64,000 nt of DNA from Symbiodinium sp. CCMP2592 (taxonomy: Eukaryota; Sar; Dinophyceae; Suessiales; Symbiodiniaceae). This document shows, in pieces, positions 14,981 through 57,609 of the stretch. The notes below the pieces were generated by a model, which was not told where the DNA came from, searched no databases, and was given only the letters and a program-made list of their open reading frames with translations. Position numbers and translations under genes: made by a program. How positions within the stretch are numbered: the stretch's first letter is position 1; the number at the start of each line of letters is the position of its first letter. The stretch is from the NCBI GenBank assembly GCA_905221615.1, contig CAJNDT010005545.1:257501-321500 (forward strand), written 5' to 3'.

Positions 14981-15063
14981 TTACCTTTGGTTAGTAGAGA
15001 ATGGAGGATTGGGTACAACTATAACTACTATTACTACCATTCTACCATTCCCTAGTAACCAAA
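14981..15063. repeat. palindromic element, family B (intron-like ends)
   Basis: TTACCTTTGGTTAGTAGAGA at the left and CATTCCCTAGTAACCAAA at the right. About 80 bp. Related copies at 19977, 37238, 43391 and 57530. Confidence 0.82.
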
Positions 15064-15148
15064 ACTCAGGTTCGGGCTTCAGTCCCGGCTGGTCTCCAAA
15101 ACCGACTTGAAGGCTTGAGGTCTGTTCATTGGGGCCATACTAACTCCC

Positions 15149-15338
15149 AATAGGTCCTATGTACTGCTAAAGTAGAATGTAGGGTTTCCATATTAGGAAT
15201 CATTTTTATGACTTAGGGAAGTATTCCCCATAACAGTACATAGGACCCTTTGGGACTAGAATAGGGTTCTGGGGTGCATTAGACTATCATTGTAATAAGG
15301 AGCCCCCAAAATAGTCTTGGTATTGGGCACCTATAGTA
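15149..15338. repeat. two adjacent palindromic elements
   Basis: 15149-15248: GGTCCTATGTACTGCTAAAG matched by AACAGTACATAGGACC. 15250-15338: a diverged family-E copy (AGAATAGGGTTCTGGGG ... CACCTATAGTA). Partial relatives of the first lie at 29977-30022 and 49329-49380. Confidence 0.7.
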
Positions 15339-16082
15339 TTGGGGCCATACGTGCTATGAGTTATGATCGAGTGAAGCTACGCGCTGCTTGCTTTCAACAC
15401 GACTTGCGTTGACCCGCGACGGTTTGAGTAAGGCAACAGCACCGGAAAATGGAGGACTGCATGATTTCACTAGAGCTGTGAGGGTTTCATACCGTCACTA
15501 CAAAGATGAAGGAAGCCTTTACATTTGATGATTCTTGCTTCAAGCCCATACAAGAACTGCTGCATGACGAGTGTCGGAGCCGCGCTAGTTCCACATCCAT
15601 CTCCCAAGCTCTCTGCCTACCGGTGTGCATGGGGTTTAGTGACGGAATACTGTTTAGGGGCTTATTGTTTAAGGTTTAAACCCCAAGGCTCTACAGCCGA
15701 AGTCTTATACCCCAAGCCTAGCCACGCCCTAAACTCCAATCCCTAAATTCTTATAAAACCGAAACCTTAGAACCTGAACCCTAAGCTTCACGCGGAGTCC
15801 ACGCACCTCAACCCTACCCCCTATACCAGGAGCCCTACACCGTAAACCCTAGGCATTTCAGAGAGACTTGGTGGGTTCAGGGTGTAAGAAGTCAACACAA
15901 GGACTCTTGAAACAACGAAGAACCGCGGGCTGTAGCAAGGATCCAGAAATATCGACTTACACTCTTGTGACATACAGGACAGAATGCTCAGCGTGAAGGT
16001 ATGCAGAATTGGAGCTTGCGTTACTGTAGAGTGGAGCTTACTGCTACTGTTTCAGGATCCGGGTCGAAGCTGACACCCGTTT

Positions 16083-16195
16083 TAGGTACTGCCCCCATAC
16101 AGTAAGAGTCTATAATAGGGCTACTATTAAGGTCCTAATATATCTAAATTATGAATATTTTTCAACTATTACTGAGTGGGGGGCGTACCCAACAC
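16083..16195. repeat. palindromic element (GTACTGCCCCC ends)
   Basis: GGTACTGCCCCCATACAGTA at the left, matched imperfectly by TACTGAGTGGGGGGCGTACC at the right, with an AT-rich centre. Confidence 0.55.
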
Positions 16196-16332
16196 TCGTT
16201 CTTCAAATCTCTGGTTATGTTGTTGCTGCTGCTTTTGCTGCATTGTAGTATCAGGCAAGCTTAAACCACTTGGGGCGCATAGTAGAAACTAAAACAAGAA
16301 TGTGGACTGGCATGACAACAGTAACTGCTACT

Positions 16333-16436
16333 ATTTGCTTAAGAGCCCCCAAAAAATAAAAAATATATTCCTTATTGGGGTAATATAGGGATTATTATTT
16401 TTATTTTTCGGGGTTTCTTAAGCAAATAGTAGAGTA
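16333..16436. repeat. palindromic element (TATTTGCTTAAG ends)
   Basis: CTACTATTTGCTTAAGAGCC at the left and TTTCTTAAGCAAATAGTAG at the right, with A/T-rich inner arms. About 104 bp. Confidence 0.8.
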
Positions 16437-16469
16437 GTGTGGCTCACTGCCATCGGACATGGACAAGAG

Positions 16470-16640
16470 AATCACAACAATACCAGCATTTGAACATCAG
16501 AAGTCGTGAATGTTGGAAACCAAGATTCACTTGTTCAATAGTGTTTCTCGCAAATCGTCGTACATATCTGTTGCTCAGCGAGCACCAACGACATTGCGAC
16601 ATCAAAATCATCTTCGTCACAACTACCGCCGGGGGTCATC
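16470..16640 (-). CDS. weak candidate exon, Cys-rich peptide
   Basis: The minus frame contains MILMSQCRWCSLSNRYVRRF, ARNTIEQVNLGFQHSRLLMF, KCWYCCDSLVHVRWQ, stop. Two CxxC-like pairs are visible. Another minus frame (SCDEDDFDVAMSLVLAEQQI) and the plus frame are also open beside a CAT/CAA microsatellite (16637-16700), so strand and frame are uncertain. Confidence 0.28.
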
Positions 16641-17129
16641 ATCATCATCATCGTCGTCCGCAGCAACAACAGCAACAACGACAATATCATCAACATCATT
16701 TTCGTCGTCTGTGCCGTGCCTCTCTGCCAGCGCCGCTGTGCTCTTTGCCTCAACAACCAAGACCAAGCTTGTCCGTTCGTGAGGTTTGGGTGCTGGAGCT
16801 TGGGTTTAAGTGTACGGCTGGTTTAGGGTTCTGGGCCGTTGAAGGGTTTGCGGCTATTCAATGACGCGAAGGCCCAAATCCTTACCCTCTACCAGATGCC
16901 CCTGAACTCTCACCCGCACATACTCGCACCTGATTCGATGTCATTCGAACTTGTGGTTCCTTGGCAGGTACCTTCTGAGAAAAACATACCCCGAATCCAC
17001 CATCCAAGCTACCCTCCCAAGGGTCCAAAGGACCCAATAATCAGGTACTTGGGTTTAGGATAGTAGCTATGTAAGTTAATATTTTGGAGAGGATATAAGG
17101 TACTTGGACTCTTGGGGTTCTGGCCCGTT

Positions 17130-17238
17130 CCCAGAGACTCCAATATCCATTAATTAAGGAATATACCTTAAAATATAGTAGGATCCTTAATCTGATTTAA
17201 GGTATATTCCTTAACTAAGGGATATTGGAGTCTCTGGG
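17130..17238. repeat. palindromic element, family A
   Basis: CCCAGAGACTCCAATATCCA matched by GATATTGGAGTCTCTGGG, with internal AAGGAATATACCTTAAAAT. One of the best preserved copies. Confidence 0.87.
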
Positions 17239-17296
17239 TTCTTGCCTACCCTGAATCGGAGCCTTCGGCCGAGCTCAAAGACGAACGGATCCAACT

Positions 17297-17408
17297 ATAT
17301 GGGAGTTTCCGAAAATTGGGGGTACCTTCCTTGGGTTCCTTATCATGAGGATCCTACTATGTAGGGTACTATATTAGTGTCCCCCTTTTTTCTGGAAACT
17401 CCCTTATA
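17297..17408. repeat. palindromic element, family C
   Basis: TATGGGAGTTTCCGAAAATT at the left and TTTCTGGAAACTCCCTT at the right. GGATCCTACTATGTAGGGTA lies inside. Related: 35634, 42728, 45140, 48495, 50307, 60831. Confidence 0.8.
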
Positions 17409-17807
17409 CGGTCTTACATACCCTGCCTGCAGTGTCGAATGCAGAATCAAAAGGCAATTCCAGCTGACAGAGGTGTTCGAGGCATGCACATCTACTCCAC
17501 GAGCTTCAGCGGATGTAATCGCTGATGCTTCGGCTGCTCCTATTGCTGGCTGCTGCTTACACGTATTCTTGACGACTATGAGACTAAAATTTCGCTACTA
17601 GTACTATGCTTGCTATCGTATCGCTGTGCTATGGTTAGCAGTGCCTTCAAACCCTCGAGCTTCGCACCACCTTGGTCCCCCCAATTCTTGGCCCTAAAGC
17701 CCACGTCCACAAGAGTCCTCAAGCCCCCAAAGCCAAACAAAACCTCCTGAAACCTTAAACCAAAAAGCCTCCAAACGCAAAGCCCTCAAACCAGGAACCC
17801 CTGTTCC

Positions 17808-17917
17808 CGAACACCTTATTGATAATAATTAGAATACGGTGCTGGGGGTTCCTTATTATAATGATAGTATAACATCCCCCCCAAAACCCTATTCTAATTA
17901 TGAAGGCCCCTACATTC
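17808..17917. repeat. palindromic element, family E
   Basis: AATTAGAATACGGTGCTGGG with complement CCAAAACCCTATTCTAATTA; right end AAGGCCCCTACATT. Confidence 0.75.
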
Positions 17918-18632
17918 CGCTCTCACCCCAACCTCTGTCAGCGCCAGCTGCCAGCAGCGCCAGGCGTGCCGAATTGCACCCTGCGACAGACCTCCCGGGG
18001 GGCTGACAAACCCTAAACCCTGGTGCCTTCTGGCGGTCCCTAGGCAGGGCTCTTTTAGGGATCCAAAACGGGCCCAAGTTGGAGAAGTAACCCGAAACCG
18101 TAATCTCTACATGCACGCCAAACTTCCGCAAAGACCCACCCTGAATCAAACCCTGAAGCCCAACAAGCACCATGTAAGCTCAAAAAGCCTGAGCTCTTAA
18201 CCCAACATAAGCCCTGTAAGCATCAAGCACAAGCCCCCGAATCCTGGCTAAACTCGTATGAGCCCAAACCCTGAAACTCTAATCACGGCTAGAACTAGGA
18301 CGCTTTGAAGCGCTTCCAGTGAGAGAACCTTCGGCCCATACAGCAGCCAGCCGGCTATACCTGTGAAGGCCAATAGCTGGGTTCAGGTTTCAGGGTTATG
18401 CTACAGGCCTTGCTGATCTAAACATTGTGCCCTAAAGCCTAAACCCCTGAACCTTTTAGGCTTCAGGGCTTGTGGTCGTAGGGTGAAGGCCACAGTGTTC
18501 TGAGCTCTAGGGGTTACGATTTAGAGTCGACCAAAGGGCTTTGGGGCTACAATGTAAACCATTGATCAATAACACCCCCCCTCTCTTGGGCAAGGGTCTT
18601 ACCGGGTATCGTATGAGGTTTTCCACTCAGAC

Positions 18633-18802
18633 TCAGAAAGGACCACCAAGTCATGGCCATGACGAAGAATGATGTCGATGCTGATGATGCAAGTTGCGGT
18701 GGCGATGAGATTGTCCTGTATGTTGATGCGGATAAGCATGATGATCATGCGGATTATCGTGATGATGGTACTTACACTGCATCGGCAAACGAAAGTAAAA
18801 AG
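18633..18802 (+). CDS. candidate first or internal exon, acidic protein
   Basis: Plus frame from a pyrimidine-rich CACTCAG acceptor region; ATG at 18653. Reads MAMTKNDVDADDASCGGDE, IVLYVDADKHDDHADYRDD, GTYTASANESKK and ends phase 0 at AAAAAG|GTACGG. Strongly acidic (Asp-rich) and well-formed. The antisense frame is His-rich and less natural. No family recognised; Asp clusters could bind cations, but no motif is complete. Confidence 0.5.
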
Positions 18803-18879
18803 GTACGGTGTTGACGCTGTTTAGCGGTGCCAGTGGGTCCGAGCTGAGGTGTGCAAGTTTTCCAACCCCTGATGACGAC

Positions 18880-18960
18880 CATGAAAAGCACAGATGCCCC
18901 AACCTCAAATAACGTTCCTGTGGTTCCCGTATTGTCTACTGATCCTGTCTCAGCTGCCTA
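18880..18960 (+). CDS. candidate exon downstream of 18633-18802
   Basis: Plus frame MTTMKSTDAPTSNNVPVV, PVLSTDPVSAA, stop. Ser/Thr/Pro/Val-rich. Connection to the acidic exon is not resolved: an alternative short exon after GTGCCAG reads WVRAEVCKFSNP then stop. Confidence 0.3.
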
Positions 18961-19084
18961 GCCGAAGTACTGCAGAAGCCACAAAACCGAAAAAAAAAAA
19001 AAACACTCATGAAACAGTTAAACACTCTAAACCCTGATCCCTAAGCCCTAAACCCGAATCCATAAGCCCTAGACGCTGCCACAC

Positions 19085-19195
19085 TAGACCCGAGACGATT
19101 GCACCACTACCTCGGCGATCTTCGCCGGGCCCAAGCACGGAAAACGGCGCGCAAGGGCGTGGCTAGGCCTTGTATCGTCAGCTCAAGGTTTAATG
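19085..19195. CDS. exon-like island, strand unresolved
   Basis: Unique sequence between CCCTAAA-type (left) and TTTAGGG-type (right) repeats. Plus: TRDDCTTTSAIFAGPKHGKR after CACACTAG. Minus: ATPLRAVFRAWARRRS up to a GTAGTGG donor. Both strands are open with plausible splice sites. Confidence 0.3.
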
Positions 19196-19345
19196 TTTAA
19201 GGTTTAGGGCTTTAGGGTTTAGGGCTCTAGGGGTTTAGGGTTCAGGGGTTTAGGGTTTAGGGGTTTAGGGGCTTGGGGATTTAGGGTTTAGGGCTTTAGG
19301 GGTTTGTAGGGTTTAGGGTTTAGAGTACCGGGGTTTAGGGTATAG
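19195..19345 (+). repeat. TTTAGGG array
   Basis: About 150 bp of TTTAGGGTTTAGGG with GGGGTTTAGGG and GGGCTTTAGGG variants. Confidence 0.85.
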
Positions 19346-19860
19346 GGTTTGGGGGTTGGGTCCTGCAGTCGGCTTGTTTTTACAGGACAGAGACCATAAC
19401 AGGGCCCTGGCTCTAAAGACGAGATAGGCTTTCTCTGAACTCCCATGCCGCGAATCCGCACAACGATTGCAGACCCTGTGCGCTGCGGTCCTCAACCTTC
19501 GGCCGCCAAACATCGCCTTGAATATCACGACCAAAACTTGACGACAGCAGATCCGTGCAACTGATGCCACGATTACGACTACGCAGTCTAGTGATTCTAC
19601 TGTTTGTTGGCCCTCAGACTCTTGCGTGCGGCAGTCGTTGCTGGTATACGAACACACGAAGATACCATAGCACGATCGCAAGCCAGAACTCCTCCCAAGC
19701 CCAAACTTAAACTTGCCTGCAGCCATCATTACATCCTAGTCTGACGACCTATGGATTCCAGACTTTGTGAAATCTGTCGAGCCTTGAAGCTCCCCCAAAA
19801 CCCTAAAGCCTGAACCCCAAAACCCGGAAGCCTAAAACCCCCAAGACTAGCTACCCAGAC

Positions 19861-19970
19861 CCCCGGGAGGATCTAGAAAGTAGATCCCCTAATTTGAGGC
19901 CCTATACTGCTAAGTACCAGGAACCCCCATTAAGGGACCTACCTTTTTGGATCCTCCAAGGGGGGTCTGG
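19861..19970. repeat. palindromic element (GGAGGATC ends)
   Basis: GACCCCCGGGAGGATCTAGA ... AGTAGATCCCCTAAT at the left, TTAAGGGACCTACCTTTTTG then GATCCTCCAAGGGGGGTC at the right. A second copy is at 34917-35055. Confidence 0.75.
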
Positions 19971-19976
19971 GTATTC

Positions 19977-20056
19977 TTTGGTTAGTAGGGAATGGAAGAA
20001 TGGTAGTTACAGTAGTTATAATTGTACTCCGTTCCTCCATTCCCTACTAACCAAAG
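19977..20056. repeat. palindromic element, family B (intron-like ends)
   Basis: TTTGGTTAGTAGGGAATGGA at the left, CCATTCCCTACTAACCAAAG at the right. The adjacent minus exon (20052-20181) appears to use GTTAGT at the edge of this element as its donor. Confidence 0.88.
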
Positions 20057-20181
20057 GTAAGCCAAGGCTACAGCTATTCGACTCAAGGGGCTCATCCATT
20101 TCAGGAGCAGCTGCTGAGGCAGGGCGCGTTCGGATCGAGAAGCCTGGACTTCTGAGAGCCACCCCAACAGCTCCAACAACT
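20052..20181 (-). CDS. candidate exon abutting a family-B element
   Basis: Reads LLELLGWLSEVQASRSERAL, PQQLLLKWMSPLSRIAVALA, YLW and stops at TTTG|GTTAGTAGG inside the family-B terminal repeat. Acceptor ACCCTTAG, in a 22-bp tandem duplication. Phase 1 to 2. Leu-rich amphipathic peptide. Joining directly to the sequence after this element would make a stop codon, so the real acceptor must lie further on. Confidence 0.45.
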
Positions 20182-20225
20182 CTAAGGGTCCCTCTAAAAC
20201 AACTCTAAGGGTCCCTCTAAAGGTC

Positions 20226-20337
20226 TGGTTCTTAGTAGGGAATTGGGGAATGGGTTATAGGGACTACTACGATAAGGGACCCTAAAGTAAAGGGACTGTT
20301 ATAGGGATCCATTCCCCCATTCCCTACGAAGAATCAG
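20226..20337. repeat. palindromic element, family-B-like variant
   Basis: GGTTCTTAGTAGGGAATTGG at the left, CCCATTCCCTACGAAGAATC at the right, longer centre than family B. Confidence 0.7.
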
Positions 20338-20728
20338 ACAGCTAAAGAGCAGATCACCTACTGGGGACCCTCTACTATGGAGGGTAGCATATACGAAGCC
20401 TGACTAAGGGATGTACTTTTTGGATCCTCCAACAGCTCTGGGTAACTATTACTCATTGAAAGAACTTTCAGGGGGCTTTGTACAATTTTATACGGTCCCG
20501 TTCTTGTTATGAGATTACGATGAGGTAGGCATGAGCGTTATCGTAAGGGCTACTGTAAGGATAAGGGGGGTTGGAACTCAGATTAAGTTTTGGGGCATGG
20601 GGTTTGGGGCTTAGTGGTCGATGACCCGCAAGTAGTGGCCAGATGTCGAGTACACCCACCGCAGTGTCTCATATGGATCTAAGCCCAACTCTATAGCGCA
20701 GGCATCAGAGCCTGCAAATCCCTAAGGG

Positions 20729-20825
20729 TCCATGTACCCATATAGAGATACATGAGCCCCAAAGTACCCCTACAGGGACTACATTAAGGCCAATGTATAT
20801 ACTATATGAGTACATGGACCCTTAG
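20729..20825. repeat. palindromic element, family D
   Basis: GGGTCCATGTACCCATATAG at the left, TATATGAGTACATGGACCC at the right. A second copy at 20960-21060 has a (TA)n expansion in its left arm. Confidence 0.8.
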
Positions 20826-20959
20826 GGAATTGGCCCAGCAACTCTGAAGAAATTGGCTTAATCTACATGCAGGCTCTGCTCGCTTAGGTGGTTGTGGGTG
20901 GAGCTGCAAATGCTGTCGGACTCAAGGGGGCCTTTAGGATTTAGGGCTTCTTACTCTGG

Positions 20960-21060
20960 GGGTCCATGTACTCAAATGGTATATATATATATATATATAC
21001 CTCAATGCACTCCCTTTTGGAGCCCAAATACATGCTATATGAATACAGAAACCCTTCACC
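20960..21060. repeat. palindromic element, family D, decayed
   Basis: GGTCCATGTACTCAAATGGT then (TA)n; right arm ATGCTATATGAATACAGAAA has decayed. Confidence 0.55.
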
Positions 21061-21518
21061 GTAAACCATATATGTCCTAGAAACCCTAACCGCTAAACCC
21101 TAAGCCATGGACTCTTAGGGTTCCCTTTTCTGCGTACCACCGTGCGCCTGAACAGGTGCCGGCAGGCACATGTCCTTCGCAACGCCGTCCTCTCCAGGTC
21201 AAGGCAGACGCGGCTGAGGGATTAGGGTTTTAGGGTTTAGGGGAATAGGGTTTAGGGGAATAGTTGCTGAGTTCGGGCGGCCAGTGAACTGTTTTTTAGG
21301 AACTTTTGAGGTTACCTACCCCTCCTGCGGTGTACTCTGCAAGTACAAAGTTGTAACAGCAACGAATTTCATAGATGGTGGGTTTTTTATTCACTCGTGG
21401 AGAAGCCCTTCTCTTTTTCTATATCAGAATCATCGCCATCACATTTGTACTCATCATACCTTCACACACCTTAAGCAAAGTCCTCTGCCCATCTTGCTAA
21501 CCTTTAGGGCCCCATAGA

Positions 21519-21628
21519 AGCACATAAGCAAAATTCAGGATAGGGATGTCCCATATAAACCCCCTTATAATGAAGCCCAATAAGGTAGGGATATCCCCAT
21601 AAAATGCTTATGCTTATGTGCTTTTTGG
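21519..21628. repeat. palindromic element (AGCACATAAGCA ends)
   Basis: AGAAGCACATAAGCAAAATT at the left and GCTTATGCTTATGTGCTTTT at the right, with AGGGATGTCCC/GGGATATCCCC inner arms. Confidence 0.75.
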
Positions 21629-21689
21629 GTCCCCAAACCCTATCATTTCGAAGCAAACCCTGGAATGTTAACTTGCACAATGCCTGGGT

Positions 21690-22050: not shown

Positions 22051-22479
22051 ATCAGGCCCAGATCCCTAAACTTAAGGTGGTTGTATACATCCTAAACCAA
22101 AAAGACTTAGAAATAGCTGGTGTCAGGCTGAGGGTGTCGGGTTTACTTTGAATGGGGATTTGGGAGATAGGGTTTGGGGTACGGCATGACCAGTCAACAC
22201 GGTCAAGGTGGGTTGAGATGCTCAGCTGCTGATTGGGATCGGCAAAGTTGGTTGAGCAATTCGCTTGGGAGTCTGGGAGTTAGGATTTCGGTGGCTGATG
22301 TGGAAAATGAGAATATGGTCGGGCAGTTGCGCCGCTTGGTCGAGAGTTTCGATTTTCAGCGTCCGGTTGGCAAAGCAGAAAAAATCAGGTAGATTTTCCT
22401 GTTTGGTTATTTTTTTGTTGGTGGTGCATTCCGGAAAAATGGATCCGACCAACTGGAAAAATACCCTAGAAAACAAGAA

Positions 22480-25107: not shown

Positions 25108-25294
25108 TCAGGGTTCAGGGTTTAGGGAAGTTTAGGGTTCAGGGTTTAGGGAAGTTTAGGGTTCAGGGTTTAGGGAAGTTTAGGGTTCAGGGTTTAGGGA
25201 AGTTTAGGGTTCAGGGTTTAGGGAAGTTTAGGGTTCAGGGTTTAGGGAAGTTTAGGGTTCAGGGTTTAGGGAAGTTTAGGGTTCAGGGTTTAGG
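25108..25294. repeat. perfect 24-bp tandem array (about 7.7 copies)
   Basis: Unit GGGTTCAGGGTTTAGGGAAG plus TTTA, repeated without visible divergence. It is built from three heptamer-like submotifs. High identity implies recent expansion. No spacers, so not a CRISPR array. Confidence 0.92.
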
Positions 25295-29530: not shown

Positions 29531-29772
29531 ACTATTAAACACCCCACCTGCAATGTTGAAAGTCTGAAACTAGGTAAGCATCGTGTGACAAACAGAATCA
29601 CCATGAAAAGCACCACGGCGATGTAAAACTCAACCAACCAGCAACCATCAGTCACAACAACAAAGCCAGGCAAGCCTCTGCAAGATTGTACTAAGCTTCG
29701 GATGGGCAGAACTTGTTTTATTGTAGGATATTGTAGGCCTCCAGGCATGGAGTGAACCTACAGGCTGACCTA

Positions 29773-29885
29773 CCCAGAGACTCCAATATCCTTTAATTAG
29801 GGAATATTCCTTAAATTATAGTCGGATCCCTAGTATGATTCAAGGAAGGAATATTCGTTAATAAAGGGATCTTGGAGTCTCTGGG
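29773..29885. repeat. palindromic element, family A
   Basis: CCCAGAGACTCCAATATCCT matched by GATCTTGGAGTCTCTGGG. Flanked by CTA and TAG, consistent with a TA target duplication. Confidence 0.85.
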
Positions 29886-30038
29886 TAGAGCGGACGTTTG
29901 TAGGGGTTCTAGCGTTACCAAGGTCGGTCTCTGCTGGCGGCGTGAAAATTACGGAACTTTGGCGTTTCCGGTCCCAAAGGGTCCTATGTACTGTTATGGG
30001 GGGATACTTCCCTAAGTCATACAACAGTCTCGGAATCT

Positions 30039-37006: not shown

Positions 37007-37237
37007 CTCAAACCGGGCACTTAGAATGAGAATTGTCGTACTGATTGTTATTATGAAAACAATAACTATTGAAATACTTCACCGTAATTTCAACACCCAA
37101 ATAGATAAGAGTACTGTCCTTATTCTAGGGGCTCCTGAAGAAGCAGCATGAAGTTCTCTGAGGGTGACTGGATCTCGGACTCTAGGGGTAGGGGGCTGGG
37201 GTCCCAGGTCATAGGTCTATACGGCCGCGGAACTACT

Positions 37238-37325
37238 TACCTTTGGTTAGTAGGGAATGAAGGAATGGGTACTATTATACTATATATTACTATCATTCCT
37301 TCATTCCCTACTAACCAAAGGTAAG
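37238..37325. repeat. palindromic element, family B (best copy)
   Basis: CTTACCTTTGGTTAGTAGGG matched perfectly by CCCTACTAACCAAAGGTAAG; TIRs extend inward through GAATGAAGGAATG. About 88 bp. Confidence 0.92.
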
Positions 37326-37500
37326 ACTAAACAAGTTCCGAGGCTTTCGGGATTCATAAATCAGGGTCCCTTTTAATGTAGGGTCTAGAGAAGCTGATGA
37401 CACATGCCAAACACGGTAGCATGAGCAAGCCATCTATCCATGCGAGAGTGGCTTTCCTCAACGCTCTCATTCCCAGTATCCGTGCGATCGCTGGAGTGAC

Positions 37501-39463: not shown

Positions 39464-39519
39464 TTGACACTAGCATGACAGAAAGATCACGGCTCATCAT
39501 TCCCTGACTTTCCAAAAGG

Positions 39520-39618
39520 CTCCATGTACCCATATAGTAGCTACTTAGGCCATAAAGTACCTATATAGGAACCCCGTTGAGGCCGAAGTACCTACTATGG
39601 GTACATGGAGTCTTTGGG
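39520..39618. repeat. palindromic element, family D
   Basis: CTCCATGTACCCATATAGTA at the left, CTACTATGGGTACATGGAG at the right. Close relatives at 48673, 54830 and 61995. Confidence 0.85.
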
Positions 39619-40338: not shown

Positions 40339-40462
40339 TATTCTGATACTGCCTCCATGTATGGTTGAGCTGTGGCATTCTTGAGTTCAGTTAAATACAT
40401 ATGAATGATGATGGCAAGGTCCCGCATGCTTCGCCTCTAAAGCAAGGGCCACATGCTTGCTT

Positions 40463-40569
40463 CCCAGAGACTCCAATATCCCTTAATTGCAATATGCCGT
40501 AAATCATATTAGGATCCCGAATATGAGCTAAGGTATATTCCTTAATTACGGGATATTGGAGTCTTTGGG
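40463..40569. repeat. palindromic element, family A
   Basis: CCCAGAGACTCCAATATCCC matched by GGGATATTGGAGTCTTTGGG. Confidence 0.85.
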
Positions 40570-40731
40570 ATCCGTTGAGCTCAAGGCGGTGCATCGACCT
40601 CATCCAGGATCATGAATGGAGGCGGGCGGAACCTGAGCCAAGGCGGACCAGCGTTCCTCATGAAGCTAACCTATATACCTGGACCCTGAGGAACCTACCT
40701 TTTTAGAGTAAAAGTCTGGAAATTAGCCGCC

Positions 40732-42812: not shown

Positions 42813-43067
42813 CAGTGCCGCTTCGGGTTTCTATAGGGAGTTGGAGGGTTTTTCTGAGCCTCAATGGCATTCTCTGGTAGACATGACCAAGGACGACATG
42901 GGAATACTACTACCCCTAAAGCTTAAACCGCTTTCCCACAGCTGTTTGAGCTGTAGTTTGCTAGACAGAATTTATGAGCGCGACATCGCTCGCACGCATC
43001 CCCCAGAAGAACCAAACCTTAAACCTATGAGAACCCAGACATCAACCTATATTAAACCCTAAGGTTT

Positions 43068-43168
43068 AGAAGGGGCCCCCACCCTGTAATAGTGGTATAA
43101 TAGGAATATAATAATTAGGGCCCTAATATAATCCTTATAGACTATTACAGGGTGGGGGCAGCTTCTAA
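43068..43168. repeat. palindromic element, family F
   Basis: CCCCCACCCTGTAATAGTGG at the left, ACTATTACAGGGTGGGGGCA at the right, centred on TTAGGGCCCTAA. Copies at 46000 and 58667. Confidence 0.88.
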
Positions 43169-43171
43169 CCT

Positions 43172-43299
43172 AAGGTGCGTACGAGTGGAGGGCGAACAGA
43201 AGAGACATGGAGGCCATCCTTCAGGGGCAGCCAGGGCTGGGGACTAGGGCTGTCAGGGTCAATGGCAGGGGTCCCTCCTTGTACCCTTGGATTACCTTT
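43172..43299 (+). CDS. candidate exon between two palindromic elements
   Basis: Plus frame after TTCTAACCTAAG: YEWRANRRDMEAILQGQPGL, GTRAVRVNGRGPSLYPWITF, ending at TTTG|GTTAGTGG, the edge of a family-B copy. Left neighbour is a family-F element, so the whole island lies between two elements. A minus alternative (DGLHVSSVRPPL, CCTGAAG to GTACGC) has good splice sites but is shorter. Confidence 0.4.
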
Positions 43300-43450
43300 G
43301 GTTAGTGGGGAATAGTGCTCCTTTAAAGGGATCTATAGGGTTCCTTTAAAGGGATCTATAGGGGTCTAGGGTTCCTTGACAGGGATCTCTACCTTTGGTT
43401 AGTAGGGAATGGAGGAATGGCGTAGAATTATAACTACGATTAAAACCATT
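43291..43450. repeat. two family-B fragments with short direct repeats between
   Basis: ACCTTTGGTTAGTGGGGAAT at 43293, and ACCTTTGGTTAGTAGGGAAT at 43391 with its right arm truncated at CCATTCC (43450). Between them GGGATCTATAGGGTTCCTTT is tandemly repeated. Confidence 0.75.
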
Positions 43451-44205
43451 CCAAGGTAGAAAAATTTCCTTCAAGCGCAGGATGTAGGCTGATTCTCGCG
43501 ATTTGGGCTAGTGCGGGGCTCAGGGCCAAGGGATAGGGCTGTGCAGGTTTGCACCACAAGCTTATGAAAGCCAGGACCCTAAACCCTAAACCCCTAAGCC
43601 CTAAAACCCTATGAACCCTAAACCCTAGACTCAGATATAGTACCCTTATAGATCCCACCAGAAATCCGAAACCCCAAACCTCATGCAGGGGCCCGAGGCT
43701 TAGGGTGTTTAGAGTATTTTGCCCAAAGCAGCATAATAGACGGGCCTCATCAATTTCAATGCTGTTTTGGGGTATGTTATGCTGTAGTTCCAACAAGGAA
43801 CCCCAACAAAGTATTGTAGTTATTCAATCTTTTAGGTTAATTATACATGAACGAAGCATCCTGCTTCCTGCTTGAGATCCCAAGGCCCAAGAGCTAAACT
43901 GCCAACCACAGCAGATCTGGAACAAAGGAATTCTTGGCAGAAATTGCTCCTATCCTCGCGCCTCCTGGTACTCATGGACCTTTCCTCCTTGAGTGCTCGC
44001 TGTCGTCTTGTGGGACGGCTGAACAAAGCTACGAAGCTCCCAAATCTTGAAAAACAAGCCCTAAACCCTTGATCCTCTTAACCCTTAACCCTTCTCCCCC
44101 CCACCCCCCCTTTGAGCCCCAAAATTGGCCTAAGCCTCGGCAATTCCCCATGCAGCCTCCCCTGACATGCCCCACTCTGAAAAAAGGCTTCGAAGCCCTC
44201 AAAAG

Positions 44206-44362
44206 CCCAGAGACTCCAATATCCCTTATGCCTTAGATTAGAATAGGCTCCTTAATATGATTGAAGGTATATTCCTTAATTCAGGGATATACCTTAAATT
44301 ATAGTACCAGTAGGATCCTTAATATGATTTAACGTATATTAAGGGATATTGGAGTCTCTGGG
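44206..44362. repeat. palindromic element, family A, internally duplicated
   Basis: Usual outer ends (CCCAGAGACTCC / GGAGTCTCTGGG), but the body GGATCCTTAATATGATT and TATATTCCTTAATTCAGGG is repeated, giving 157 bp instead of about 107. Confidence 0.82.
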
Positions 44363-45919: not shown

Positions 45920-45990
45920 TCAGCATCGTCGAGGTCGAGATACGCCTTGGTAGGGTCGGCAGCATGTTGCTATTCCTTCTGGCATAGCTT
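45920..45990 (-). CDS. candidate exon
   Basis: Minus frame QHAADPTKAYLDLDDAEE from AAGGAATAG to a GTTGTTTAGGG donor, phase 0 to 1. Acidic, well-formed. It lies within the span of the plus-strand candidates, so genes on both strands overlap here or one set is wrong. Confidence 0.42.
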
Positions 45991-45999
45991 AGAAGCTGC

Positions 46000-46103
46000 C
46001 CCCACCCTGTAATAGTGACCATAAGGATTATATAGGATTATATTAGGGCCCTATTATGCTCCTATTATACCACTATTACAGGGTGGGGGCAGCTTCTAAG
46101 GCA
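46000..46103. repeat. palindromic element, family F (complete)
   Basis: TTAGAAGCTGCCCCCACCCT matched perfectly by AGGGTGGGGGCAGCTTCTAA. About 100 bp. Confidence 0.93.
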
Positions 46104-48559: not shown

Positions 48560-48672
48560 ATCTTGCAGACATGGATTTGTGTTTGCCCTCTGCGGTCTCA
48601 GTGATTATCCTGTCCTTCAACCCAGCACTTTCCAAGAAAGCCCAAAAGCAATCTCGAAGCCTACAACCCGAA

Positions 48673-48777
48673 GACTCCATATACCCATATAGTAGGTACT
48701 TACGCCTGAAAGGCATCCCTATATAGCTACTTTAAGGCCTAAGTACCTACTAGATGGGTACATGGAGCCTTTGGACA
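48673..48777. repeat. palindromic element, family D
   Basis: CTCCATATACCCATATAGTA at the left, TACTAGATGGGTACATGGAG at the right. Confidence 0.85.
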
Positions 48778-49550: not shown

Positions 49551-49553
<3 letters not shown>

Positions 49554-49945: not shown

Positions 49946-49964
49946 ATGTTCGGGCTCGTGACAC

Positions 49965-50406: not shown

Positions 50407-50918
50407 TATCATAGTGGTTTTGGTAGTAACAAACCCCGAGGAATACTACGGGTGATAATATAACCGATGTCGCCATAGCAACAAACCTGAAGAAGGGAGA
50501 GCAACAGAGCAGTGGGTAATGACTCCTTGTTCACGGAGTATGATGGCCGAGACAGTCGCCTGAAACACCGAAAGCACACAAGGCCCAAAGCAATCACGTT
50601 CCGCAAACTTTCATCCCCATTATCGGTATTTTATGTTTACTGAGCCTTGAAGTCCGCATTTCGAATATCCTGTGCTTTAGCAGACTTCTTTCAACCAGAG
50701 GCTACCGAGGACGAAAACATCACCCCAAGCCCTAAGCCCCAGACCCTGTAGCCTAAACCTAAACCCCAACCCCAAGCCCCAAACCCCACAGACCCCCAGC
50801 CCGAAACCCAGAATGGATTGTTCAAGAACCAGACTTCAGTTTTTTCATAAGTTATCAAACTAACAGCGGCATGGTGTCAAATGTGTGCCGCCATTGTGTT
50901 TAAGACGAGTTCCCAACC

Positions 50919-50936
50919 CCCCCCCCCCCCCCCCCA
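50919..50936. repeat. C18 homopolymer
   Basis: Uninterrupted poly-C; G-quadruplex-prone on the minus strand. Confidence 0.95.
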
Positions 50937-51021
50937 GCCTCCTCAGAATTCCCTCCTAAACCCTGGACCCTGAACCCTACACCCTAACACTTCATCCGCG
51001 GCCCAGGAGCTCCGTTTCCAC

Positions 51022-51067
51022 GGTTTTCGTGTCCGTAACTCTGGAGTGCTCTGCAAGTTCCTCTGCT
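51022..51067 (-). CDS. candidate exon, charged helix
   Basis: From AACCCCTAG: AEELAEHSRVTDTKT to donor ACC|GTGGAA; the frame stays open as VETELLGRG before a stop. Phase 2 to 0. Plain coiled-coil-like composition between heptamer-type repeats. Confidence 0.42.
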
Positions 51068-51139
51068 CTAGGGGTTGAGGTTGGATGATGCCCCCCTCCT
51101 TTCGATGTTAAGGGTCCTATTCAGGGAAGTATAGCGGCT

Positions 51140-51225
51140 ATACATATATATATATATATATATATACATATACATTTATATATATATATACAGATGTATA
51201 TATGTATATATTATACATATGTAAA
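51140..51225. repeat. (TA)n / TATACA microsatellite
   Basis: Several (TA)8-10 runs separated by CA and TG steps. Confidence 0.92.
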
Positions 51226-51435
51226 TTAAACATGATACCCCAGGTGTTACAGAGAGGGAGACGCAGCATTTGAGGTTCAGGTTTAGGGCAGGAGGGGTTA
51301 GCTTAACGGCAACCACAATGGCTTCTCTGGTGTCTGAACGACTGGGTATTGTGCTTCAGGATTTATTGTTGTGGTGTTTGGGGTTTAAAGGGGCTGACAG
51401 GTAGCAATCCTACGCCATAAAGGAGGACTCTAAAA

Positions 51436-51711
51436 ATGGGAACTCAAGACCATCGTGAGATCCGTGCGGAGATGTGGGGTGTTGGGTTCAGCAGGAGCTT
51501 CTTCGTGTTCCTGCACGGCCAATGGTACTACAAGGTGGTGCTGCTCTGCTACGGTCAGGTTCACAACTTGTGTACTGTACAAGGTCAGCACGGTGCTGCA
51601 AGATTTGTCCAGGTTCTGTTTTCGACACTGACTGTAGAAACAGTAAGGACGGTGAGATGCCATAAATTGCCAATGCCTCCAATCCAAGCCCTGAAGCCTA
51701 AGCTTACACAT
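51436..51711 (+). CDS. candidate coding region starting with ATG
   Basis: ATG at 51436: MGTQDHREIRAEMWGVGFSR, SFFVFLHGQWYYKVVLLCYG, QVHNLCTVQGQHGAARFVQV, LFSTLTVETVRTVRCHKL. First 45 residues look most natural, with a phase-0 donor at GGTCAG|GTTCAC. The frame runs on to 51936, but the later part is repeat-like. An antisense frame (STQVVNLTVAEQHHLVVPLA) is also open. Confidence 0.43.
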
Positions 51712-51974
51712 CCTGCTTCAGGGCTTCTCTTCTGTATCTGTCGGACTCGCCACCAGGGGCCGAGGCTTGATCCAATGTCCCCCGAAACCCTGAACCCAAG
51801 CCCACAAACCAACAACTGGCCCAAAACCCAAAGCCACAGTAGCAGTACCAATGCCTATGACAACTGCATCACAAGCACTGATAATCATAGGTCGGGAAAC
51901 GGCAGTGGCAACACCTCCAACAACATCAACAAATAACAAAACCGAGACCGTGATGATTGCACAAGGAGTAGATA

Positions 51975-52385
51975 TTGCTGCCGCCGCTCTTCGGCAATAG
52001 CTATGATGCACACTGTGTTTTCCAAACTCTGTCAACATGCATAAGAATCTCGCATAAGAATGTCATAAGAGGATTGGGCTCCAAACAACCCCGCCGGCTT
52101 GATGTCCCTTCAACGCTTGGACTTCCACACGGCCGCAAGTTTCGGGCTTGTTATCATCGTTCTTTCCTTCGAGGAAACCTAGTCATACAAAAACGTAGGC
52201 AGCGGGTCCTTCTTGTCCTCGGGGAGGTTGACGAAGTCAACACTGACGCTCCTCTTCGGCTTGACATCAGGCTGAGAATTCAGAATTTACAACAGGACAG
52301 AACGAGGATCCTACTGGATTTAGGCCTGTGCATCAGCCCCAAAAAACCGCGCGCTATTACTTGGACCGTTTGGGTAAGCGCATAG
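51975..52385 (+). CDS. long plus frame with competing antisense exon
   Basis: 136 codons ending VLGEVDEVNTDAPLRLDIRL, RIQNLQQDRTRILLDLGLCI. On the minus strand 52189-52271 reads PDVKPKRSVSVDFVNLPEDK then KDPLPTF between GAATTCTCAG and GTATGAC, a good exon candidate. One of the two is real, and I cannot decide which. Confidence 0.35.
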   Translation: MLPPLFGNSYDAHCVFQTLSTCIRISHKNVIRGLGSKQPRRLDVPSTLGLPHGRKFRACYHRSFLRGNLVIQKRRQRVLLVLGEVDEVNTDAPLRLDIRLRIQNLQQDRTRILLDLGLCISPKKPRAITWTVWVSA

Positions 52386-52925
52386 GAAGGCGTGTAGGGA
52401 TCCTTGGCCCGACAGACTCGCGACCATGGGTGAACGCCCAAAAGGTCCGCAGCGTCTCAGCCCCACCAGATGCAGACTAGGCGGCAGCCAGACCCCCAAA
52501 AAAACGAACTAAGGTCTAGGAACCTGGAACCCGAAACCATAAACTCCTAAACCCCTAAACCATAAACTCCTAAACCCCTAAGCCCTAAACCCGGAACCCG
52601 TCCCACCCCGGGGGGGTCCCGGGGGCCCCCGGGCAAGCTCCTAGCTGCTTCGACTCCGCGGAGCATACCACCCAGACGCACAGCCGGTTTAGCGTTTAGG
52701 ATTTATAATCATGCGGGAAAGAATAACTAGTGCCGGCATGCCCGTTCAAACCTTTATAGAAGCTTGTGATAGGAAGCCAAGCCCTATTTAAACCCTTTCG
52801 CCCGCATGTACATAATAAACATAAACACACGCACACATACGTTATTCAGAAATATAAGTACGCGAATGAACAAGCTGTAAATGTATCTGCACCTATATAT
52901 CTATATATCGACTGTCTGACTATAC

Positions 52926-53015
52926 TTCTCTAAGCCTTAAATTAAAGGCCGTCCTACAGGCGTTCTCGAGGTCTTTCAAGGGCATGTCGTCGATCTCTTG
53001 CTCCCGCTCCAGGAC
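52926..53015 (-). CDS. candidate exon, charged helix
   Basis: 90 nt, phase 0 to 0. Acceptor CTGTGTTGCAG, donor AGAGAA|GTATAG. Reads VLEREQEIDDMPLKDLENAC then RTAFNLRLRE. Among the best exon calls. Right flank is heptamer repeat. Confidence 0.62.
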
Positions 53016-53034
53016 CTGCAACACAGGCTTTATC

Positions 53035-53240
53035 TAGGGTTTAGATGGGCTTAGGGCTTTAGGGGTTTATATAGGGTTTAGGGGTTAGGGTTTAGGGCTT
53101 TGGGTTTAGATGGGTTTTGGGTAGAGGTTTAGGGGTTAGGGCAATACAGGATTCCTACCAAGGTTTGGAGTCACAGGGCTTTTAGGGGGTTGAGGGGTTT
53201 AGGGATAGGATTCATAGGGCTTTAAGGGTTTAGGGTCGAA
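53035..53240 (+). repeat. TTTAGGG array, degenerate
   Basis: GGGTTTAGATGGGCTTAGGG and related units, about 200 bp. Confidence 0.75.
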
Positions 53241-53693
53241 GAGCTTACAGTGTCGGGGTCTTGGGTCTGTTGCAATCTGATCTGACGACTGAGGACAAAC
53301 GTCGTTTCATTTTGTGTGCATATAAAGGTATACACACGTTTTCTTCAAATGGTGAGCGAAGCCGCATAATTACTTTATGATATGCGATGTGATATTCCTA
53401 GTGGTGACTAGCGCGCTAAGGAAGGGTTGTGGGCTTTAGAATTGCTCTCTGTATATGAGATTTCCAAAGGATTGCTAAAAGGCGATGGCACGCCGAAAAA
53501 TCAGCTTGACATGGGGTGCTGTGGAGTGTCTTCGAATGACTTGGAGCGTCTAGTACCTAGAAGGTCCATATATTGCTGTCGAGCGTTGTAGGAGGTTGTG
53601 TTTCAAATATTGTGGCGGTCCTTTCTGTGATATGCCACCTGCTCAGCCATGACATTCGGACGTCAGAGAGCTGTGGAAGAGAGGAGGGTCTAT

Positions 53694-53694
53694 G

Positions 53695-53737
<43 letters not shown>

Positions 53738-53738
53738 G
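53694..53738. repeat. (TA)n(CA)n microsatellite
   Basis: TATATATATATATATATACA then CACACACACACACACA. Confidence 0.95.
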
Positions 53739-54162
53739 CGACTAGAGGTCCAAAAAACCTTCATGGTAGTAACATGTATGGTGCCATATACAAACCCTCT
53801 GGGTTAGTAACAAAAAAGACCCTCGTCATCTTGAAAGCGGTGCTCTCTTGCGAGCTACCTACCGATTCGTCACAACTCCCTGCGAGAGAAAATTAGGGAA
53901 TCGGGGTTGATGCTGCAGCCGTGCCTTGTCCATCGCCGATGTGTCGGGATGCCTCTGGGAGTCTTGGGCTCAGAGTTTAGGCTTTTGGTCTGTGTTGGCT
54001 TAGGGTTTAGGGTTTAGAGATTAGACTATTGGTCTGTGTTTTTTCTCTAAGACGGTGTCGGTTTTACCGCTTAGGTTTCAGGGCTTGGGCTGCTTACTGG
54101 CTTTACAGTTTGGGGCTCAGGGTTGCCTAGGGTTGTAGGGCTTTGAGATTTGAAGATTTTAC

Positions 54163-54185
54163 CCCCCCCCCCCCCCCCCCCCCCC
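54163..54185. repeat. C23 homopolymer
   Basis: About 23 consecutive C, the longest homopolymer in the window. Confidence 0.95.
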
Positions 54186-54829
54186 GATTTTCGAGGGAAG
54201 TGCGGTCCTATTCATGAACTCCGAGCTGCTGTAGGATTTTAGGGCTTTGGCATTCTATTCTATTCTGTTCTTTGTATACTGTAGTGTATGATTGTGTTTA
54301 GGTACTTGTAAGATCTTGTAATCATATCATACCATGTCATATTACGTCATTTTTGCACTACTGCCGTCTTATGTTAGATTTTTTCGCCAGAAGTTCGAAA
54401 TCCATCGGTGTCATGTTACCATATTACATGAGATCACCCAAGCTGGTACGACAGTGCGACCCCGAAACCCTAAACCCAAACCCTAAACTCCGCATAATAA
54501 ACCCTAAACACAAAATAAACAACATATCATCCCAGCGAATTGCAAGCTGTTGCCACACAGGCCCAGTCACCTATATGGTAGGTTAATGGGTTTAGGATGC
54601 CATAAGCTTTTCCATAAGTTTCGGCTGCTCGGCCCCGAATGTGACTCCTATGATATAAACACACTGTAATATGCCCTAGACCTATGGGCTGAACCAACAT
54701 GCATGACGAAAGATGGAAGATCCAAAACCGCTTACTCCTTCGCACGACTCTGGGGGTGTCGGGATCTCCAAAAGATTGGTGTAGAGTTTGAGCCTTAAGG
54801 CTGCTAAAGTTTCGGGTTCTTTCCCAAAA

Positions 54830-54933
54830 ACTCCACGTACCCATACAGTAGGTACTTAGGCATTAAAGTACCCTATATACGTACTTTAAGGCCTAAGTAC
54901 CTACTATTATATGGGTCCATGGAGCCTTTGGGT
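54830..54933. repeat. palindromic element, family D
   Basis: CTCCACGTACCCATACAGTA at the left, CTATTATATGGGTCCATGGA at the right. Confidence 0.85.
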
Positions 54934-55028
54934 TTGAGATACCCGAAAGCCCACCGCCACTATCCCAGGCCTCAAGGGTAGGTCGATTCCTCGGTCGCCT
55001 CGGTAAGAAGAGGTCATTTGGTGCTTAC

Positions 55029-55055
55029 CAGAGGAGGGTCGCATCGGATCTTGGC
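55029..55055 (-). CDS. candidate micro-exon
   Basis: 27 nt, phase 0 to 0, from CCCGAAG to the canonical CCTCTG|GTAAGC; reads AKIRCDPPL. An upstream acceptor (CCACAG, 55063) would extend it as PKAKIRCDPPL. Very short, but the donor is a good consensus match. Confidence 0.38.
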
Positions 55056-55862
55056 CTTCGGGTCTGTGGGTTCGCGGTTTAGGGTTTAAGGGGTTCAGAG
55101 GGTTTAGGGGTTTAGGGCTTAATGGACTAAGGCTGGTGTTCCAGGTGATTGGGTTTAGGGCCTTGGGCTGGGTTCAAGATGCCGCGGTGCTAGGGCTGTG
55201 AGCTCCGGGTTTCGAGATTTTACCAGAGCTTGCGGGTGTTGGGGTCTACGTAGCTGCTGCCCAAGGTGCAGGGGTACGAGTAACGTCGTGGCATTGTCGA
55301 GCGGCAGAAAATCGAATCGGAGGATAACCCCTAAGCAATGGCAAACCGAAGTCATGAGCAATAGTACAGTAGCCTCGAAAATTATACCAGGGGACTTTTG
55401 GGTGTGCTATATCTATCTACCTATCTATCCATCTATTTATCTATCAGTATATAATTATACATATATATATATATATATACATAGTTTGGTAGGGTCTCAT
55501 GTAGGGCCTTAGAGTGTGGGGTATCGATTATACTATAAATATTCTTATGCGCCACACGGCTTAGTTTTGGTCATCATTTTGGCCTCTAGACTTGGAGTAC
55601 GGAGCAGCGTGTGGGGCTCAGGTCGTGGACCGTTTTGAGGGTTTGGGTTGCAAAGGGTTGAGGGTTTCAGGGTGTTTAGCATTTTGGGATTTGGGGCTTA
55701 GGTGTCGGGTTTTCGTGGCTCAGTATTCTGGGATTCTGGTTAGGGTTCCGGGTTTCTGCTTGGTCCAGGTTTAGGGTAGCCTACCTTTTTAAGGACGTAT
55801 AATATGTGGAACTCATTATTGAATGAGGAACCCCGCAAGCGCCGAAAAATCAGGTTTCTTAC

Positions 55863-55943
55863 GGTCCAGGGTTCGAGGTACCTCTGAAGGCCCCGGCGGC
55901 ACTCGCGGAAAATGGCACAGATCATGCTGAAGATGGTCTTCAC
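55863..55943 (-). CDS. candidate exon
   Basis: 81 nt, phase 0 to 0. Acceptor AAGAACTCCTAG, donor GGACC|GTAAGAAA (consensus). Reads VKTIFSMICAIFRECRRGLQ then RYLEPWT. Hydrophobic then basic; resembles a helix of a folded domain. One of the best-supported exons. Confidence 0.62.
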
Positions 55944-56269
55944 CTAGGAGTTCTTGTGGGGGTTTGGGGTTGAGAGTTGCTTACAAGCTCTAGAAGACTT
56001 AACCCCGGTGAAACATCCTGAACCCTGGAGAAATTCTCCTTACCCCTACATATACCCGTCCAGAGCTCCCCACGTTCGGGTTTCAGGATATGGGTTTAGG
56101 GTTTTATGAAACTATCCCCCCTCCTCCCCCCGCCTTTAATCCCAAAGCCTTAGAGCTATGATGTTCGGAATCGGGGGTCCTAATGTCTGTGTAAGGGCCC
56201 GCCCAAGCCGTGGATGTAGGTGCTTAATGTCAATGCACACTTTGCGCCTTTGCCCGAAGCCCCACACCC

Positions 56270-56402
56270 CAAACCTAAACCCTAAAACTCTGAACCCTAG
56301 ACGCTAAACGCTAAACCCTAAAACTCTGAACCCTAGACCCTAAACCCTAAACCCTAAAACTCTGAACCCTAAACCCTAAACCCCAAAACCCTGAACCCTA
56401 GA
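56270..56402 (-). repeat. CCCTAAA array with CTCTGAACCC units
   Basis: CCCTAAAACTCTGAACCCTA repeated at about 45-bp intervals. Confidence 0.85.
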
Positions 56403-56460
56403 ACGGTTCAGGGCCCTCAACTCGTTGTTGGGTCGTTCAACCCTGTAAGCAACACCTTGC

Positions 56461-56502
56461 CTTCTCGTTCTGGCGCTTCAGCCGCTTTTTGGCATCATCT
56501 GC
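56461..56502 (-). CDS. candidate exon, coiled coil, possible GC donor
   Basis: From AAGGTCCAG: ADDAKKRLKRQNEK. Phase 0 to 0 if the donor is GAG AAG|GCAAGG (a GC-AG intron); phase 2 if it is GCAAG|GTGTTG (56456). A second acceptor (56508) adds VQ. Unmistakable charged helix. Confidence 0.55.
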
Positions 56503-56765
56503 CTGGACCTTGGATGGGGGCTTTTCGATTTAAGGGCTTGGTGTTAAGGGTTTAGGGTTTAGGGCTTGTCAGTTTTAGTGTTCAAGGCCTAAGATGGCCT
56601 AAGTCCCCTAAACCTTAAACCCTAACCTACACCCTAAACCCTAAACCCCTAAACCGGCATGTTTAGGGTCTATGTTCAGGGTTTGGGCTTGGGGCTGAAG
56701 TGTACAGGACTCAAAGCTAGAGCTCTGGCCTTTCATCCCTCCGAACCCAAACCCTCATAAATGCA

Positions 56766-57020
56766 GGAACCTGATTAAGAAACCCTGGGCCTACTACCCC
56801 AAAAACAGTAGGGTTCATACAAGGAACCAAATAAAGGCCCAAGGTTTGGTAGTCAGGTTCCTACATGGGTGGTTGTCAAAATTGGGGTCCATTTTTTGAG
56901 TCCCCAGTATAGTACGACACCTAAAATTTAGGGTACCCAAAAAGGAACCAGAAATTTGACAACCACCCATATAAGGAACTCTACTAAAGGCCCAAGGTTT
57001 CTTAGTCAGGTTCCTACATT
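56766..57020. repeat. palindromic element split by a family-G insertion
   Basis: Outer element GGAACCTGATTAAGAAACCC ... GGTAGTCAGGTTCCTACAT (to about 56866). The family-G element follows (56866-56985), then a second copy of the outer right half (AAAGGCCCAAGGTTTCTTAG, 57016). Family G is thus flanked by direct repeats of about 45 bp. Confidence 0.75.
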
Positions 57021-57049
57021 GCCCTAAACGCCAGAATCAGGCATGGTTG

Positions 57050-57235
57050 TCTCTACCGGCAGGGAGTGTCATTCTTACCATTGTGAACATTAGCATTAGC
57101 ATCAGGATTAGGATTAGGCCTCCGACCCTAACAGCCCCATGCAAGAACCAAACAGACTCAGCAAATGTTTGGTCAACTAGTATAATATTCGGCCTGCGGG
57201 GCCGTGTAGAGGGGGTAACAATGGAATAATGGAAT
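57050..57235 (-). CDS. weak candidate exon with hydrophobic segment
   Basis: Minus frame TPSTRPRRPNIILVDQTFAE, SVWFLHGAVRVGGLILILML, MLMFTMVRMTLPAGRDNHA, stop. A possible membrane segment (GGLILILMLMLMFTMV) is encoded partly by a CTAATC microsatellite, so it may be artefactual. Confidence 0.33.
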
Positions 57236-57433
57236 GATGTCCCAAGTTGCTCAGGGCTGCGGAACCCTAAACCACATCTCACACCTCAAGCAGACCCGAA
57301 AACTCAGAAACGGCTCAAAACTTTGCACACTGCAATGAACCTCCTCGATATCCAAAACCCCGTATGCAGACAACGTCACAGAAAAAGTGCTACAATGTCA
57401 GGGTCATGTATACCCTCACGCCCCAACCCCTAC

Positions 57434-57506
57434 ATCTAGGTGCCTTCAGCTTGTAAATGTCCGTTCGACCCAGCTTGTTCGAGTCCTCGAACTTTTCCTG
57501 CAAAGT
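57434..57506 (-). CDS. candidate exon, charged
   Basis: From GAACCCGTGAG: TLQEKFEDSNKLGRTDIYKL then KAPR, to donor AGAT|GTAGGGG. Phase 0 to 1. Hydrophilic helix. The intron upstream holds a family-B element (57530-57609). The plus strand is also open (LVNVRSTQLVRVLELFLQS), ending at the family-B GTTAGT. Confidence 0.5.
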
Positions 57507-57529
57507 CTCACGGGTTCGATTGTCTTACT

Positions 57530-57609
57530 TTTGGTTAGTAGGAAATGGAGGAATGGGGTACAATTATAACTACTGTTACTACCATTCTTCCAATCCCTAC
57601 TAACCAACG
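57530..57609. repeat. palindromic element, family B
   Basis: TTTTGGTTAGTAGGAAATGG at the left, CCAATCCCTACTAACCAACG at the right. Confidence 0.88.

Follow-up and report, generated by a model that had tools for sequence, protein, structure and literature searches.

Family-B elements in the window and in the genome

We analysed a window of 64,000 nucleotides from the dinoflagellate Symbiodinium sp. CCMP2592 (contig CAJNDT010005545.1, forward-strand positions 257,501 to 321,500; C4939:257501-321500), which carries copies of a short palindromic element, here called family B, that a first-pass annotation had tentatively compared to introners, i.e. transposons that create introns on insertion. Neither a codon scan nor Pfam searches with ten open reading frames, which gave nothing above the cut-off, revealed a gene in the window. 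The four copies and two fragments reported in that annotation are present where it had placed them, and the motif GTTAGTAGGG occurs 17 times in the window (with at most one mismatch), compared with 5.95 expected and a maximum of 12 in 100 shuffles. However, the ends of the element had been set nine bases too far inward, the true ends being CTTACCTTT and AAAGGTAAG. Both ends are intact in the 90-bp element at 37236-37325, which lies between two copies of ACTA (37232-37235 and 37326-37329). The element at 14980-15069 has a decayed right end, with AAAACTCAG in place of AAAGGTAAG, the one at 19971-20061 has a decayed left end (GTATTCTTT) and an intact right end, and the one at 57524-57614 shows an imperfect 4-bp duplication (TTGT/TTAT). 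The two remaining pieces, both on the plus strand, are a left-arm fragment at 43291-43314 (ATTACCTTTGGTTAGTGGGGAAT) and a copy at 43388-43459, the right arm of which is mostly deleted and which runs into AAGGTAG. At 20221-20341 lies a 121-bp element related to family B; its outer ends differ, and the same 4 bp (CTAA) flank it on both sides.

The search was extended to the genome (1.098 Gb, 5,383 contigs), from which we compiled a set of 55 full copies, comprising the window (five entries, one of which is the divergent relative at 20221) and 48 other loci, taken at the first-listed places on contigs C1-C3. Locus L031 (C1:2443728-2446936), where partial family-B copies are arrayed in tandem, many of them at a spacing of 161 bp, was excluded from this set. 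Family B is a near-perfect palindrome of 91 bp with the ends CTTACCTTTGGTTAGTAGGG...CCCTACTAACCAAAGGTAAG, and alignment of the copies shows CTTACCTTTGGTTAGTAGGGAATGGARGAATGG shared at one end, with the reverse complement of this sequence at the opposite end. The outer end pair can also be written CTTACCTTTGG...CCAAAGGTAAG, the terminal repeats beginning with CTTACC. A length of exactly 91 bp is observed in 36 of the 55 copies, which are 94.5% identical (median) to their own consensus, and the outer nine bases (CTTACCTTT) are conserved at 87-93% per base at both ends of the 55 copies. The 91-bp consensus folds end to end with a predicted energy of -59 kcal/mol.

The short target duplications that the first-pass annotation proposed to look for were found: an identical 4-bp duplication flanks 28 of the 55 full copies, whereas 0.8 are expected, and 26 of the 46 copies with both ends clear, whereas 0.9 are expected when the flanks are re-paired. 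Among lengths of 2 to 6 bp tested on the 55 copies, duplications of 2, 3, 5 and 6 bp showed no excess over expectation. The duplications have a preference for TWWA, and only one of 26 starts with GT or GC on either strand. Family-B arms with at most one mismatch to a 16-mer are found 15,758 times in the genome (7,930 + 7,828), compared with 13 times (8 + 5) for the reversed control, and exact 25-nt arms are found 4,865 times. GCNN precedes 103 of these 4,865 exact arms, i.e. sites starting with GC are rare. The exact 20-base end motif was not found in viral contigs. Based on its size of 91 bp, its terminal repeats, its 4-bp duplications and its copy number, family B is a miniature inverted-repeat transposable element (MITE), that is, a non-autonomous, palindromic DNA transposon, present as a very abundant relic. 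It displays the features by which MITEs are recognised, namely terminal inverted repeats, a duplication of fixed length, high copy number, short length and lack of coding capacity.

Coding context of family-B copies

The stop-free length of the empty sites is similar for 48 element sites (median 83.5 amino acids) and for the control (85 amino acids), but as real exons are short, this comparison has no power and a codon model was used instead. Training used 23 dynein exons (3,666 nt) found with Pfam PF12774, and the threshold of 0.196 is the lower quartile of 30 left-out 90-nt exon windows, so that 75% of these pass by construction. Background windows pass in 4.2% of cases, and the median scores are 0.30 for real exon windows and -0.14 for the background. 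As a model derived from a single gene family misses other compositions (the true exonic copy described below scores 0.19), weak cases were also read by eye. Real dynein introns served as a positive control, and of 17 such introns, 12 pass with their joined flanks and 8 with both flanks; the control takes the best of three joining phases and the element tests one exact join, which slightly favours the control.

With this test, none of the 55 family-B copies taken as listed has coding joined flanks, and neither do any of 40 copies with GT before the left arm or of two sets of 20 copies each with GC before the left arm. Membership of the GT and GC sets depended on the bases preceding the left arm, and the second GC set was picked mostly for GC-rich duplications. 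The right end is clear in 30 of the 40 copies of the GT set and in 17 and 18 of the 20 copies of the first and second GC sets, with complete duplications in 16, 10 and 8, respectively; because of these incomplete right ends and duplications, the joined-site test can be relied on in fewer than 80 of these copies. Overall, the strict test is passed by none of 135 copies, compared with 12 of the 17 real introns, and family B is therefore not mainly made of introns, most copies being located in non-coding DNA. From the absence of hits among the 55 copies, at a power of 71%, we estimate that copies that split exons make up less than about 8% of the family. Single flanks pass in 9 of 110 cases for the 55-copy set, and in 3, 4 and 2 cases for the GT, first GC and second GC sets.

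No enrichment of family-B copies near coding segments was observed, with 5 of 20 lying within 100 bp (17% at random) and 7 of 20 within 300 bp (31% at random). Among ten exon candidates near copies, Pfam matched only L048, below the cut-off (ABC1, 19.6 bits for a cut-off of 22.9; APH, 17.2 for 23.2). The host gene of L048 thus has a sub-cut-off match to an ABC1 kinase (19.6 bits, cut-off 22.9), and this truncated copy and L046 are intronic, being located 17 and 28 bases, respectively, past apparent host donors, with borders read by eye.

These results bear on the proposal that family B is a true introner family, the copies being whole introns bounded by GTTAGT and CAAAG. Motifs are indeed present at both ends and one copy is exonic, but none of the 55 copies has coding sequence on both flanks or across the empty site, and the family is not found mostly as introns. 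The four full copies of the window, which belong to this set, have no coding flanks according to the codon model. The two candidate exons said to end at GTTAGT score -0.07 and -0.10, like background; the final 9-10 bases of each belong to the repeat of the transposon itself, and after removal of the transposon end they score -0.08 (20061-20181, minus strand) and -0.10 (43172-43290, plus strand), which leaves them background-like and unsupported as exons. The boundaries GTTAGT...CAAAG were rejected, as they would leave 10 + 5 + 4 = 19 bases in the message, i.e. a frameshift. We therefore regard a true introner family as extremely unlikely. The introner idea thus fails for the window copies and for the family as a whole, but it finds support in one exonic copy elsewhere in the genome.

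An exonic copy on contig C968 and the splice-like ends

Among the family-B copies examined, both flanks pass the codon threshold in L132 alone, the joined flanks of which score 0.19, just below 0.196. This 137-bp copy (C968:788851-788987) lies between two copies of GCCG and splits a coding exon, the site reading ...ESKEKAKKEKEKSKP|EPKAEEEAHVLGAWLQDEK..., also written ...EKSKP|EPKAEEEAHVLG.... A genome search with the joined protein returned three relatives: one at C446:300171-300671 (67% identity), which is full-length and uninterrupted, a second at C25:1084225-1084686 (55% identity) and a third at C968:849509-849829, 60 kb away on the same contig, in which the exon is continuous through the site. 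In the alignment, all three paralogues lack the element, so that in this one case an exonic insertion is absent from its homologues, as is asked of an introner. That family B can insert the way introners do is thus supported by one exonic copy with a 4-bp duplication and three unbroken paralogues.

The reading frames are intact on both sides of the insertion. An unspliced message would contain 141 additional bases, among them an in-frame TAG (KPLTFG*), whereas removal of the insert as GCCG...GGTAAG| (GC-AG) would restore AAG CCG GAG exactly. From these features, we infer that the insertion is spliced out as an intron, the GC being provided by the duplication and the acceptor by the terminal GGTAAG|. 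Over 44 codons, and as an average of both lineages, the ratio of nonsynonymous to synonymous substitution rates (dN/dS) of the host gene family is about 0.17, 0.12 and 0.23, and the family looks constrained. Pfam gave no significant match for the host gene, the best being Sec62 with an E-value of 0.24. In the same gene (C968:788561-789427, covering L138, L132 and L139), a second intron is bordered on both sides by a 9-base repeat, AGGTCCTGG, and the three paralogues lack it as well, so that two duplication-flanked introns appear to have been acquired by this gene copy.

Read outward, each end of family B is TACTAAC-CAAAG-GTAAG. The host U1 small nuclear RNA (snRNA) starts with AAACTTACCTGG and the branch region of the host U2 snRNA is GTGTAGTATCTG. 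As motifs, TACTAAC and GTAAG are confirmed, matching by sequence what these U2 and U1 snRNAs would bind, and in this respect the ends fit the host machinery. A duplex program gives -11.6 kcal/mol for the pairing of U1 with the family-B end and a weak -3.7 kcal/mol for that of U2, which as far as it is counted speaks against TACTAAC as a branch point; we think that the weak score is due to the program not bulging the branch A. Among 200,000 random 37-nt arms of window composition, none has TACTAAC followed by AGGTAAG and 47 have the relaxed pair, but as the motif was picked after being seen, this result is suggestive only.

With regard to the host, some introns of other genes, when read by eye, are compatible with GC or GA donors and AG|G acceptors, and a published study (PMC11453091) reports that 25-74% of introns in Symbiodiniaceae have GC and GA donors. 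The U2, U4, U5 and U1 snRNA genes share one tandem repeat of about 2.1 kb, with a typical U2 spacing of 2,136 bp; 47 U2 copies were scored (C2929, C1571, C3641, C4287, C4008 and others; L117). The dinoflagellate spliced leader has 636 matches in the genome with at most one mismatch, compared with none for the control; together with the snRNA repeat, this points to a dinoflagellate genome. In several ordinary introns (L053, L060 and L048), reading by eye shows the same short sequence at the donor and where the following exon begins (GTGC, about 10 repeated bases, GACT), as expected if these introns arose from insertions.

We consider, with moderate confidence, that family B is an abundant dinoflagellate MITE that occasionally works as an introner. 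A transposase from elsewhere would presumably insert the element, mostly at TWWA sites, and generate the 4-bp duplications. At an exon site starting with GC (or GT or GA), the left duplication would give the 5' splice site, the terminal GGTAAG of the element would give the 3' AG, TACTAAC just upstream of the acceptor would serve as the branch point, and joining after removal would restore the exon. Several points weigh against this explanation. The gene copy carrying the insertion could be dead, and the dN/dS values combine the periods that preceded and followed the insertion. Just one of 135 copies is demonstrated to be exonic, falling narrowly below the strict threshold (0.19 for 0.196), and its branch motif is decayed (TACCAGC). 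The candidate exonic copy L110 (duplication GTCA) returns only itself in a genome search and has no Pfam match, and L164, another candidate, has no Pfam match either. Introns in untranslated regions or non-coding exons would escape the codon test. As RNA, the palindrome would fold on itself (-59 kcal/mol for the consensus) and hide the splice signals.

Alternatively, family B could be a plain MITE without a splicing role, the C968 copy having simply disrupted one copy of the gene and the resemblance of the ends to splice signals being a coincidence. The hairpin would mask the ends, the splice-like motif was selected post hoc, no coding sequence spans the joined flanks of any other copy tested, and the copies in L048 and L046, at 17 and 28 bases past the apparent host donors, are not at intron ends. 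However, the C968 duplication starts with GC, which is exactly what makes excision perfect, the frames are intact on both sides of the insertion, and the exact TACTAAC/AGGTAAG pair was absent from the 200,000 random arms, with 47 relaxed pairs. A plain MITE is a serious but rather unlikely alternative.

Two further explanations give the ends a role in splicing. Family B could provide a zero-length-exon (recursive) splice site, each end of an intronic element reading branch point, AG and then GTAAG outward in either orientation, so that long introns would be removed stepwise at the element. The order and spacing of the motifs, their match to the 5' end of U1 and to the U2 branch region, and the two copies inside introns agree with this, but the hairpin masks the site, and TACTAAC was not seen in the dynein introns inspected (three of them in part), so that the host does not depend on it; we regard this as very unlikely. 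Alternatively, the terminal repeats may have been shaped by the spliceosome, intronic copies acting as stepwise splice sites and exonic copies becoming introns, in either orientation. As the element is a palindrome with an outward branch point, acceptor and donor, its insertion into a gene would offer a complete acceptor-donor pair in either orientation. We give this little credence; if true, a palindromic transposon would carry its own harm reduction on both strands.

Other repeats of the window and known elements

The window also contains another palindromic family, with TTAGAAG...CTTCTAA ends, at 45988-46100 and 43066-43168, with 8-bp duplications seen by eye (GGCATAGC and CCTAAGGT). At least two more palindromic families, with arms like CCCAGAGACTCCAATATCCCTTAATT and AAGTCTCCATGTACCCATATAGTAGGTACTTAGGCC, are present at 17130-17238, 29770-29888, 40462-40570, 44206-44362 and 6056-6163, and also at 61997-62097, 48671-48771 and 39515-39615. 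Degenerate TTTAGGG telomere-like repeats form long interstitial stretches in many places (e.g. 10192-10467, 13867-14232 and 25110-25294).

Introners derived from elements with terminal inverted repeats and 4-bp duplications are already known in dinoflagellates (PMC9860276). Family 1 of Symbiodinium microadriaticum (Gozashti et al. 2022, PMC9860276) resembles family B in its 4-bp duplications, its terminal inverted repeats and its dinoflagellate host, and these introners resemble the proposed C968 case in having their own 3' splice site and obtaining the 5' splice site from the duplication. However, family 1 was found as annotated introns, whereas family B is almost devoid of coding context, with one exonic copy; the two are compared by design, not by sequence. 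The introner elements of Amoebophrya (Farhat et al. 2021, PMC7789003) also belong to a dinoflagellate lineage and show inverted and short direct repeats at their borders and a hairpin. They differ in having inverted repeats of 8-20 nt, direct repeats of 3-5 nt and mostly non-canonical borders, and no family-specific inverted repeats were detected in them. The symmetrical stwintrons or introner-like elements of fungi (Fekete et al. 2021, PMC8469720) likewise carry their signals inside the terminal inverted repeats of a near-palindrome, but are described there as lacking target duplications and as real introns on one strand only. MITEs with 4-bp duplications share with family B the short, palindromic, non-coding sequence, the thousands of copies and the constant duplication length; what sets family B apart is the agreement of its ends, read outward, with the consensus of branch points, acceptors and donors. 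No publication was recognised as describing family B in a literature search by words, not by sequence. Dinoflagellate introners are reportedly the subject of work by Roy et al. (Curr Biol, 2023).

Family B provides a test case for the origin of introns, as it combines one abundant family, a known 4-bp duplication and thousands of background copies with an occupied gene copy that is directly comparable with three empty paralogues. Our results suggest that introner-like insertion can come from an overwhelmingly non-coding family, and searches based on annotated introns may therefore miss such families.

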